DNA from: Ustilago trichophora
Taxonomy: Eukaryota; Basidiomycota; Ustilaginomycetes; Ustilaginales; Ustilaginaceae
Assembly: GCA_900323505.1 (NCBI GenBank)
Contig: OOIN01000010.1
Span: 496,001 to 560,000 of the forward strand
Direction of reading: 5' to 3'
Length of the DNA: 64,000 nt
Of the stretch, positions 11,028 through 15,549 are shown in pieces. A program made the position numbers and the translations under genes. The notes beneath the pieces are model-generated. The model did no database searches and had not been told where the DNA came from. It worked only from the letters and a program-made list of their open reading frames with translations. Position 1 is the first letter of the stretch. Each line of letters starts with the position of its first letter.

Positions 11028-14000
11028 TCATGAAGCTGTAGATTCTACAGCGTCGATTGCAAGCCGAGCAGCTTTTTTCTCAAAGTAAACCTTGCGCATG
11101 ACCTGCTTGATCATTTGCAAAGCGTACAGTTCCAAGTTGGCCTCTGATGTGGTTAGTAGCGACTTGACCTGTGCAGGGGTCCAAACGAGGTTGTACGAGT
11201 TGCTGAAGGCTGCTTTGCTCGGATCGTAGTCTGGATTTGTTGGGTTGGGAAGCAGGGGGCAGTAGATCAGGTAGAATGTTGTGCCGTTTTCTTTTCTAGT
11301 CCCTTTCAACACGCGGGCGTATTGCGAGATGAACCTCTTCTCCAACTCCCTCGCCAAAGGTGAGGAAGAAGGTGGGAGGCTAGCGGGTGTAGGTTGGGTG
11401 AAGAGATGCGTGCAGTCCTCGAGGGTAATGTGGCAGTCATCGGCAAAATTGTGAATCCTTCGCATGGCTGAGCCGGCTTGAACGTCGGATGAGGCATCAA
11501 AGGTGATGATGATTTCTGCGTTGCGTTGGGGTCGTGCGAGAACGTGCGTGGGGAGATTGTTGGACATCCCAGCGTCCATCAGTCTAATGCGACCTGCTGA
11601 TTCCCAGGAGCTGTCGAAGGAGCTATCTTCTTTTCGCTTCGCTGCCGTTGTGAGGGGATGCGAAGACGCCGCCGATGAAGATGGTGTAGATTTGCCGAGT
11701 TGTAGCAGGGTACCGTCTTCGAGAGCACCTGACTGTGGGGGGAGGGTGACACTGAGATCACCCCAATCGGGAGCCTTGCTGGGGGCTATTGAATCTCGGG
11801 GAGAAATAGAAGCTTCTTCTGCCAGCACGTTCGCGACCACATAGTCTCCATCATGAGACAAGCTCAAGTGTAACTTTGGCAACTTGTCAACGCCAGGATG
11901 CTTCGTTTTCCACTCATCCGAGAATGCCAACTCTGGTTTTTTGGTGCGGAATCCTTGAGCCTCGAGTTGTGAGAGATCCACACCGTCGATGGGGCCAACG
12001 TTGGAGGTTGATCCAGGCTTGTGCATGCAAAGATCTTTCCAGGAGACCAAATATTTTGGGTATAATGCTTTGTACGCTGCTTCTTTGGCGCTCCATCGAT
12101 TGGCAAGGTATGATTGCAGCTGTGTCACGTCATCAGCAGCAGGAAGCGATTGTGCAAGTAGGTCGTATTCGCGCCGTTCAGAGTTGCTGAGGATGCGCTT
12201 TGCTAGCTTGTCGAGACCTGCCCGTTCAGTGATGCATGGCTCTGATGGGCTCGAATTCGTGTGACTGGGCAAAGAGGTTCTGGCCCGCCTCTGCACCAGG
12301 TGAAGCAAGCGCGGCAAGTGCAAAATGTCGACGCCGATCCCCAAGATGTTGGTCTTGCTCTTGTCGTCGCTGTCAATCTTCCGTACAGGGCTGACATTGA
12401 GCCCGTAGAAAGGATTCGGCTCGTCACCTGCACGAATAGGATTACCCCACCTGCGCTCCCACCGCTTCATGCGAACAAAGTTGTTGAGAAAGTGAAGGAT
12501 GCGCGACATTGCCGTGCCCTTTGGCAGGGAAGCCAAAAGAGCCGAGATGTATCCAGTCAATGGGCCTGCAGGAGCGCTCGTGCACTGTCCCAGCAGAAGT
12601 GAAAGCGACTCTTCTGGTCTGCGATCGAGCGAGTGACCCGAGACGAAAGGGCGACCCCATGCCCATGTAGGGATGTAACCTTGCACATCAGCGCTTCCAA
12701 CTTCGAGTGGTGTCGCTTCAAACCATTGGAAGTAGCCTTTGGCCGCGGGAAGCGCGAAGACGTCGGTTCTATCGTCGACACCTGTTGCTGCAGAATCAGG
12801 GGCTGCATCGACGCTTGATAAAGTCTGAGGTGGAGCTGTAGAACCGCTCCTGTAGGTGAGTGCTTTTGACGCGGCCGACTGATGCTGGGTTAAAGCACGC
12901 TTGGGAGGTTGGCCTTTGCTGAGGGATGAATCTGTGTGAGGGCGCACACCTGGCGCGTCCTGAGGCGCTACACGGACAGCAGTGAAGATGGGCAGAGGTT
13001 CAGCGCCCGAGCTGACGCCAGATCGAGACCATACTTTGGAGAATTGAAAGCTGGCTCTGCTGAGCCTTGCTCGTGGCTCCCTCGACAAGAATTGATATGT
13101 CGTAGTCAAGGTGGCGTAAAGATCCATGATTCCAAGCCCAACAATGCCGGCTTGAGCCTTACGAATCAATGGCCCCAAGAGAAAGTATACCCCGCGACTA
13201 CTCCTGGCGACAGTGTCGAGAGCGTGCACACTCATGGGATGGGCGAGCTCGCTAGCAACCTCTAGGTAGTGTCGCACCAGTTTGTCGGCATCTTGATAGG
13301 CGATTGTGTAGTAGGCCGCCAGAGTCCAACAGCTTCCGCTGACCCCACCAGCCCATGCGATATTGTCCCACAAATTTGATCGCTTGGCGGCAGCAATGAA
13401 TCCAGCGAAGCCGTACATGGCCCGATAGCCTCCTCCTGAGCCGCCCAATGCTACTAGAGGAACATCGCGGGGATCCACGTGTTCATTCGTTGGAAGGTCC
13501 AGAAAGTCCTTCAAGCGATCTGTGCCATTAGATGACAGTCGCTCCTGCCTCTTGCGGAGAAATTGGACCTCCTGGGGATGCAGCGAGGGAGATCGTCGCA
13601 CGGTGGCATCCCAGTCTACCTCGGGGTAGGCCTTGCGATCGGAGATGTCAGCGCGAAGGAGCTGCTTGACGTGCGCCAAGTCTCTGGCTCTTTGTGACCA
13701 TCGATTCAAGAGTCTGCGGACTGAAGAGCCCTGAGCTGCTGCTCCGAGAACATCGCTAGAGATGACGACCTCGCTAGGAGGAGGAGGAGGAGGAGGAGGA
13801 AGCGGTTGGCCAGCTTGATTTGATGATGCAGTGCTTGAGCTCGGAAACCAGACTGACTCTTCCACCGGTACGATACGTGGACCTAAGCGTGTCCGAATAA
13901 GCCTGTACTTGTTGAGCTGAAGTGTTTGACCAAGCTGCGGGATGCGAGAAGATACCGGTGCGGCCTGAAAGAGGGTGACAAGCGCACAGAGGCAGTAGAC

Positions 14001-14051
14001 CTTGACGTAGAGATAGGTCGGGCTCTGCCGTAACGAGGTCAAGATGGGCAT
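11028..14051 (-). CDS. Cytosolic phospholipase A2 with an AcpS-type 4'-phosphopantetheinyl transferase nested inside its catalytic domain
   Basis: One uninterrupted frame of 1007 codons from the ATG at 14051; upstream codons stay open but have no ATG. The first 63 residues hold basic residues and no acidic one, and include a hydrophobic stretch (about 13-29), so the leader looks mitochondrial. PLA2 part 1 has LGGSGGGYRAMYGF (S205, R210, oxyanion/Arg), AGGVSGSCW with nucleophile S238, then YIPTWAWGR and NPFYGL (546-551). Residues about 568-742 form a complete AcpS-type PPTase: ILGIGVDI (D575), ILSNSERREYDLL, NRWSAKEAAYKAL (K656, E657) and LHLSLSHDGDYVVANV (H733). After a Ser-rich linker, PLA2 part 2 resumes with RIRLMDAGMSNNLP (dyad D826) and IIITFDASSD. 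Key residues of both enzymes are present. Predicted activities are phospholipid acyl hydrolysis and transfer of phosphopantetheine from CoA to an acyl carrier protein. Confidence 0.88.
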   Translation of the reverse strand: MPILTSLRQSPTYLYVKVYCLCALVTLFQAAPVSSRIPQLGQTLQLNKYRLIRTRLGPRIVPVEESVWFPSSSTASSNQAGQPLPPPPPPPPSEVVISSDVLGAAAQGSSVRRLLNRWSQRARDLAHVKQLLRADISDRKAYPEVDWDATVRRSPSLHPQEVQFLRKRQERLSSNGTDRLKDFLDLPTNEHVDPRDVPLVALGGSGGGYRAMYGFAGFIAAAKRSNLWDNIAWAGGVSGSCWTLAAYYTIAYQDADKLVRHYLEVASELAHPMSVHALDTVARSSRGVYFLLGPLIRKAQAGIVGLGIMDLYATLTTTYQFLSREPRARLSRASFQFSKVWSRSGVSSGAEPLPIFTAVRVAPQDAPGVRPHTDSSLSKGQPPKRALTQHQSAASKALTYRSGSTAPPQTLSSVDAAPDSAATGVDDRTDVFALPAAKGYFQWFEATPLEVGSADVQGYIPTWAWGRPFVSGHSLDRRPEESLSLLLGQCTSAPAGPLTGYISALLASLPKGTAMSRILHFLNNFVRMKRWERRWGNPIRAGDEPNPFYGLNVSPVRKIDSDDKSKTNILGIGVDILHLPRLLHLVQRRARTSLPSHTNSSPSEPCITERAGLDKLAKRILSNSERREYDLLAQSLPAADDVTQLQSYLANRWSAKEAAYKALYPKYLVSWKDLCMHKPGSTSNVGPIDGVDLSQLEAQGFRTKKPELAFSDEWKTKHPGVDKLPKLHLSLSHDGDYVVANVLAEEASISPRDSIAPSKAPDWGDLSVTLPPQSGALEDGTLLQLGKSTPSSSAASSHPLTTAAKRKEDSSFDSSWESAGRIRLMDAGMSNNLPTHVLARPQRNAEIIITFDASSDVQAGSAMRRIHNFADDCHITLEDCTHLFTQPTPASLPPSSSPLARELEKRFISQYARVLKGTRKENGTTFYLIYCPLLPNPTNPDYDPSKAAFSNSYNLVWTPAQVKSLLTTSEANLELYALQMIKQVMRKVYFEKKAARLAIDAVESTAS

Positions 14052-14416: not shown

Positions 14417-15549
14417 ATGCCTACGTTCGAATCCAAGCCGTTGCGCAAGTCCAATTCCGTGCTGGCGAGGCTTGCTCCGCAAGTTCGACGCAGGCCTCTG
14501 CTCTTCTTCGGGCTTCCCTTCTTGGCCACCATCGTTGGTGCCAGTTTCGGATTGGCCAACCTCACGCAAACGCGATATGACTACAATGCCACCAAGGTGC
14601 AGACCATCTCGAAGGAGGAGGAACTGCGAATGAAGAAGGATCGTAAGAAGATCGACATTCGTGAGGAGTACTTTGTAAGTATCCGTACCCTACTACTATG
14701 CTTTGCTCCTTGTCTGCTGGAGCTGCTACTGACGTTTATTACCCCTTGAAATGTGCTATTCGCTCTGTACAGAAATTGCAATCAAAGGAGGACGAGCTGG
14801 ATGACTGGGAGCCGAAGCGAATCGAGCGTCCTGACGGTGTCGCGGAATGGGGTGTTGCCCCTACGGCATACAAGTCGATTCAAACCCAGGGCCTCTCCGG
14901 ACAAGATGCCGAGCAAGAAAAGAGCAAGGGATTTACCGTCGACAATGTTCGTACATCACGTCAGCAGCCTCAAGTAGTGCTTGGCCCAGACGGCAAACCG
15001 TGCCGTGCTTGCAACTCGAAGCTGGCTTTTGCTGCGGCCATGAAGGGAACAAGGATGCCACCTGCGACTACCAACTCCAAAGATAGCTCTTCGAGCAAGT
15101 CCGCAACAACAGCAGCGGGTGCGGCAACAGCAGCGGCAATCGCCACAGTCCCAACTACCAGCCGGGAATGCCCACCAGACGGAGAGGAGCTTGGCCGCTC
15201 AGCATGGACACTGTTGCACTCCGCCGCAGCCTATTTCCCGGAAGATCCATCGGCACAACAGCAAACTTCAATGCTTGCGCTATTCCGTGCCCTTCCGCAC
15301 ATCTATCCGTGCCACTCGTGTGCGGAAGCACTCGGCGAAGAGTATAAGCGTGAGGAGAAGGAAGGTGGATGGGAAGACCGTAAATTGAAGCTAACTGACG
15401 CCGTGCGTTCGGGACCGTCATTGCGAAAGTGGCTCTGCGGTATTCACAACGAGGTGAATCAGAGGTTGGGGAAGCCAACTTTCCCGTGCACTGAGGCCAA
15501 ACTGAACGAAAGATGGCTCGACGGGCCTGCTGATGGCAGCTGCGACTGA
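14417..15549 (+). CDS. COX16-ERV1 fusion: cytochrome c oxidase assembly factor joined to the FAD-linked sulfhydryl oxidase
   Basis: Exon 1 is 14417-14674 and exon 2 is 14773-15549, with a 98-bp GTAAGT..ACAG intron in phase 0; the product has 344 residues. Residues 1 to about 113 are Cox16: a basic N-terminus, a membrane helix at about 28-47 (LLFFGLPFLATIVGASFGL), then TRYDYNATKVQTISKEEELR, REEYFKLQ and DDWEPKRIERP. After a 40-residue linker the C-terminal part is Erv1/ALR: shuttle pair C163/C166 in DGKPCRACNSK, GRSAWTLLHSAAAYFPEDPS, the redox-active pair C266/C269 in YPCHSC, then WLCGIHNEVN (C308), KPTFPC (C325) and ERWLDG. Yeast Cox16 is an inner-membrane protein with its C-terminus in the intermembrane space, where Erv1 works with Mia40, so the topology is compatible. 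No internal ATG lies between the Cox16 part and the CxxC pair. Confidence 0.88.

Follow-up and report, generated by a model that had tools for sequence, protein, structure and literature searches.

What is a second, complete enzyme doing inside the catalytic domain of a phospholipase? The question is raised by one open reading frame in the window, a 64,000-nucleotide stretch of Ustilago trichophora DNA (contig OOIN01000010.1, positions 496,001 to 560,000). The frame lies at 11028-14051 on the minus strand and encodes a cytosolic phospholipase A2 (cPLA2)-like protein in which a phosphopantetheinyl transferase (PPTase) of the AcpS type is nested between two halves of the lipase. The fusion is probably the mitochondrial Ppt2 of smut fungi, that is, their holo-acyl carrier protein (ACP) synthase, housed in a membrane-anchored phospholipase. 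The direct basis of this reading is the architecture, the predicted folds, the intact active-site residues, purifying selection, the finding of no other AcpS-type enzyme outside fatty acid synthase (FAS) in the genome searched, and the presence of an ACP client. Enzymatic activity, substrate, location, replacement of a stand-alone Ppt2, and trimer formation are inferred.

The frame runs from an ATG at 14051 to a stop at 11028 and specifies 1007 residues with zero internal stops. It is readable without any intron, and no in-frame ATG occurs upstream of 14051 back to the nearest in-frame stop. Pfam reports PLA2_B (PF01735, E 7e-14) and ACPS (PF01648, E 6e-9), both exceeding the curated cut-offs, and no C2 domain. 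In a phmmer comparison with solved structures, residues 151-249, 440-516, and 819-855 match human cPLA2 (1cjy), leaving a large gap from about 516 to 819. The predicted structure recovers a cPLA2 catalytic fold and a single-lobe AcpS fold.

At the N terminus, a conserved segment (residues 1-62; 13866-14051) includes a hydrophobic helix at about residues 11-30 (13962-14021), modeled with a low predicted local distance difference test score (pLDDT). The first part of the cPLA2 catalytic domain (residues 150-551; 12399-13604) contains the nucleophile S238 (13338-13340) and is interrupted by a disordered stretch at residues 381-437. Linker 1 (residues 552-565; 12357-12398), mostly of pLDDT below 50, leads into the AcpS/Ppt2-type lobe (residues 566-749; 11805-12356), which is delimited by Pfam, a residue check, and the model. 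The lobe contains D575 (12327-12329), K656/E657 (12081-12086), K661 (12069-12071), and H733 (11853-11855). Linker 2 (residues 750-815; 11607-11804) is Ser-rich and disordered, with pLDDT below 50 over residues 752-811. The second part of the catalytic domain (residues 816-1000; 11052-11606), placed by profile and structure matches and by the model, supplies the dyad aspartate D826 (11574-11576); the lobe lies about 60-75 residues ahead of this aspartate in the sequence.

Another contig (C42) of the same assembly carries a second full-length copy that has the same motifs and is 88% identical. The same order of parts is found in 19 further full-length database rows, and the frame runs unbroken through host and insert in all 20 full-length rows. 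Because the second copy and these 19 rows share the order of parts, chance and misassembly are ruled out; the C42 copy is identical to one row (P0003, Ustilago trichophora), which is hence not independent of it. The nested architecture of phospholipase and PPTase is certain in practice. A first-pass annotation, made from the sequence alone and giving no strand, had claimed such a nesting with two intact active sites and flanking linkers. The open frame, Pfam, and the additional copies bear out the nesting, and its residue numbers (S238, D575, K656/E657, H733, and D826) are all correct. The linkers are indeed disordered in the predicted structure, and the two folds that it had proposed to look for by structure prediction are both present. 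Its interpretation is supported in part; the link that it drew between phospholipid turnover and lipoate synthesis or complex assembly is still a hypothesis.

Database searches recovered 21 further rows with an intact nest (P0002-P0022), of which 19 are full length and 10 bear a species name; judging by the names, we take all 10 to be Ustilaginales. These rows from other smuts rule out a single-genome oddity. D575, K656, E657, K661, and H733 are all present in 22 of 22 smut-type rows. Their roles, with D and E in Mg/CoA binding alongside the conserved K, K, and H, are assumed from bacterial AcpS. On the phospholipase side, S238 is present in all 21 rows covering the site and D826 in 22 of 22, in keeping with the claim of two intact active sites.

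Selection was estimated as the ratio of nonsynonymous to synonymous substitution rates (dN/dS) between the two fusion copies of this genome. The ratio is 0.27 (0.16-0.46) for the lobe and 0.15 (0.07-0.27) for its conserved blocks, compared with 0.00-0.11 for the phospholipase parts. Linker 2 reaches 0.37, and a variable loop of 30 residues exceeds 1. These values indicate that the lobe is under purifying selection in smuts. Together with the catalytic residues kept in 22 of 22 rows, such selection rules out a pseudogene insert in smuts, and the AcpS lobe is very likely enzymatically active.

At the same insertion site, eleven other rows have a homologous segment that is similar in length. Eight of them have species names and are presumably Sordariomycetes; the remaining three were assigned to ascomycetes by tree position. 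The genera represented are Stachybotrys, Paramyrothecium, Thelonectria, Mariannaea, Dactylonectria, and Ilyonectria. In these inserts, D575 is replaced by serine in 10 and glycine in one, and E657 is lost in all 11, while K656 is kept in all 11, K661 in seven, and H733 in three. The segments persist at 205-255 residues between the NPFY and DxGM motifs. Pfam ACPS is above the cut-off in one, below it in four, and absent from two of the seven rows scanned; two of the 11 carry the Joint Genome Institute name holo-ACP synthase despite the loss of catalytic residues. The phospholipase residues S238 and D826 are both present in 11 of 11. The residue losses indicate that the ascomycete inserts are decayed PPTases, and since they occupy the same site, the phospholipase can do without an active insert. 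Among 44 chosen relatives without the insert, the site holds a linker of 19-116 residues in the 39 measured; the other five lack the NPFY motif. A check for the nesting elsewhere, also proposed in the first-pass annotation, thus finds it intact in other smuts, and finds a decayed insert or a short linker in other relatives. That ascomycetes hold a decayed PPTase at this site is new relative to that annotation.

Does the genome encode another enzyme that could act as Ppt2? A whole-genome search with PF01648 at E values up to 10 yields six matches, namely one pair each for FAS, the Sfp type, and the fusion. A Sporobolomyces Ppt2 query matches the fusion pair alone, and a Tilletia Ppt2 query matches it at 2e-26 and 3e-24, followed by E values of 0.21, 0.84, and 2.8. 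With PF01648 and the two Ppt2 queries, searched exon by exon with introns ignored, no non-FAS AcpS-type enzyme was found besides the fusion; the first-pass annotation had called for such a search. The homeologous pair among the weak matches (C33:155909-156103, E 0.21; C35:456060-456251, E 0.84) aligns with residues 69-132 of the Tilletia Ppt2 and lies in frames of about 1355 residues.

The lobe profile matches 781 proteins in the database, and the best 120 of these were examined by name, with taxonomy presumed from the species names. Stand-alone Ppt2 proteins within the best 120 come from Tilletia, many other basidiomycetes, and Mucoromycota; these 120 include neither an intact stand-alone Ppt2 from a named Ustilaginales species nor an ascomycete-named row. 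Three candidates were rejected as stand-alone Ppt2: P0168 is a fragment of the fusion that starts with cPLA2 sequence, P0169 is a partly scrambled frame, and P0174 (UDID_19284, Ustilago sp. UG-2017a) is a partial extra lobe copy without the GIGVD part. A mitochondrial-type ACP is present in the genome as a small gene pair whose product begins with a basic stretch free of acidic residues; the motif LGLDSLDAVEVV lies in the next exon, the exons being read separately.

The N terminus bears on location. Residues 1-62 contain eight basic and no acidic residues and have a dN/dS of 0.017 between the copies, among the most conserved parts of the protein; only cPLA2 residues 438-551 are lower. The pattern is common to 90 rows from smuts and ascomycetes, with no acidic residue before position 39 in 87 of the 90. 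A mitochondrial signal-anchor with a basic segment behind it, as known from Bcs1, would fit this pattern, but so would anchoring in other membranes.

One polypeptide would combine a group-IV-type phospholipase with a mitochondrial-type holo-ACP synthase. Helix 11-30 is predicted to anchor the fusion in a membrane. The phospholipase core would assemble from its two separated halves, with the S238/D826 dyad hydrolyzing acyl esters of phospholipid. The AcpS lobe, tethered between the halves by the two disordered linkers, would use D575 and E657 to bind CoA and Mg2+ and would transfer phosphopantetheine onto the serine of mitochondrial ACP. In Ustilaginales the lobe has probably replaced the stand-alone Ppt2 that other basidiomycetes retain, and it would be held intact because of this takeover. 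Relatives of the phospholipase in ascomycetes have lost the lobe's catalytic residues or lack the lobe altogether.

The fusion resembles and departs from several known systems. Stand-alone Ppt2/PptB proteins belong to the same family and share the motifs GIGVDI, KEAAYK, and SHDG and the AcpS fold; Tilletia stand-alone rows are 34-43% identical to the lobe or the matched region. However, the stand-alone rows read are 119-251 residues long, whereas the lobe here lies within another, membrane-anchored enzyme. The fungal cPLA2-like PLA2_B/PlaA group and human cPLA2 alpha/delta share with the host the GGSGGGYRAM motif, the GVSGS serine, the catalytic aspartate, and the fold, but the fusion has a whole PPTase just before that aspartate and an N terminus of its own. 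The PPTase domain of type I FAS is C-terminal and acts on its own complex, in contrast to a lobe nested between lipase halves; both kinds are present in this genome. The ascomycete homologs belong to the same subfamily and share the insertion site and a homologous insert, but the catalytic D and E are gone in 11 of 11.

The Sfp-type pair suggests an alternative in which the lobe is an active PPTase but the Sfp-type enzyme arms mitochondrial ACP, leaving the lobe to act on some other carrier protein or redundantly. One paper describes the sole human Sfp-like enzyme as serving mitochondrial ACP and such breadth as possible in fungi too (PMC4659657). We consider this alternative unlikely, because the lobe clusters with the stand-alone Ppt2 of fungi, keeps its five active-site residues in 22 of 22 rows, and has no other Ppt2-type counterpart in the genome searched. 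Alternatively, proteolysis within the two long disordered linkers, alternative splicing, or an internal start might release the lobe to act as a separate product, the full-length protein being mainly a phospholipase. This is quite improbable, as the frame requires no intron anywhere and is continuous across host and insert in 20 full-length rows, and no Met follows residue 528 before the lobe begins at 566. Constant splicing-out of the lobe is also disfavored because codons that are always removed would show no such dN/dS constraint. The insert might instead be a pseudoenzyme with a structural or regulatory role in the phospholipase. Residue loss bears this out for the 11 persisting ascomycete-type inserts, but for smuts it is highly improbable, because none of the 22 rows has lost any of the five residues and the lobe is under purifying selection.

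Several points weigh against the identification of the fusion as mitochondrial Ppt2. Because its N terminus is a hydrophobic anchor rather than a plain cleavable matrix presequence, access to matrix ACP is not evident. The lobe diverges faster than the phospholipase (dN/dS 0.27 versus 0.00-0.11), and an Sfp-type PPTase could serve ACP, as the human enzyme does. Three weak Tilletia Ppt2 matches exist (E 0.21, 0.84, and 2.8), the first two being homeologous. The exon-by-exon genome search could miss a diverged, intron-broken stand-alone Ppt2, and 661 of the 781 lobe-profile matches fall outside the best 120.

How did the nest arise? Lobe trees were built with 74 and 46 rows, rooted on Mucoromycota and one blastoclad, with no ascomycete PptB included. 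In these trees, the lobe joins the stand-alone Ppt2 of fungi inside the Basidiomycota side. Smut and ascomycete inserts form one clade, with support of 95/86 (74 rows) and 96/92 (46 rows), and the ascomycete inserts adjoin Testicularia and Pseudozyma flocculosa (95/78 and 90/50, respectively). The approximately unbiased (AU) test does not reject a constraint that unites the smut inserts (p-AU 0.37 with P0022 and 0.43 without it), and a single clade of all fusions is not rejected either (p 0.45). P0022, a C-terminally truncated fusion row, falls outside the joint insert clade with poorly supported placement. The first host tree contains 83 of 167 proteins and the second 75 of those, with PlaA dropped; the PlaA rows lie far from the fusion hosts (branch 4.65 on each side), too distant to root the tree. 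In the tree without PlaA, insert-bearing rows are scattered among insert-free rows, a single clade of them is rejected (p-AU 1.7e-5), and insert presence requires three changes. Taken together, the joint clade of the lobe trees and the scatter of the host tree fit a single insertion after which the ascomycete copies decayed and were lost repeatedly, combined with inter-phylum transfer or very patchy retention.

Bacterial AcpS is a trimer. A broader scheme, which we regard as doubtful, is that Ustilaginales moved their mitochondrial holo-ACP synthase into a phospholipase, that the lobe trimerizes it, and that, from its place next to the catalytic aspartate, the lobe lets the level of CoA or apo-ACP tune lipolysis or the reverse; in ascomycetes, the nest would have outlived its inner enzyme. 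Any coupling of the two activities is speculative. No description of a PPTase-phospholipase nesting was found in the literature searched, from which most subscription papers were out of reach, and fusion proteins are already annotated with both Pfam domains in public databases. According to two papers, Ppt2 is required for mitochondrial ACP, lipoate, and iron-sulfur cluster assembly in the fungi studied so far (PMC4659657, PMC4991935). If the favored reading is true, a core mitochondrial function sits where it would not be expected, in a protein annotated in databases as lysophospholipase, and a Ppt2 nested in a smut lipase explains the missing stand-alone gene. One insertion site, seen intact, dead, or as a linker, provides a natural series of an enzyme entering an enzyme and then being kept or decaying.

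Two further features of the assembly were observed. Both copies of the Sfp-type PPTase lie in one open frame behind indoleamine 2,3-dioxygenase (L039:171-3479, 1103 residues; L040:120-3533, 1138 residues; contigs C23 and C20), and a literature search on this shared frame found no paper. Most genes searched in the assembly (45 contigs, 38.8 Mb) are present as diverged pairs. The paired genes and the unequal fusion copies, one identical to the Ustilago trichophora row and the other 88% identical, are as in an interspecies hybrid or a two-nucleus assembly.

Next to the fusion, a divergent plus-strand frame at 14417-14746 matches COX16, a cytochrome oxidase assembly protein (Pfam E 1.8e-21), and is followed by an Erv1/Alr-type frame at 14698-15546 (E 7.5e-26). 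COX16 and Erv1-type proteins are mitochondrial, and as a hint of a mitochondrial role for the fusion these neighbors are only suggestive. The COX16 profile is split, with positions 1-58 in the first frame and 58-79 matched weakly at the start of the Erv1/Alr frame (E 0.0069), and 14417-15546 may encode a COX16-Erv1 fusion across an intron.
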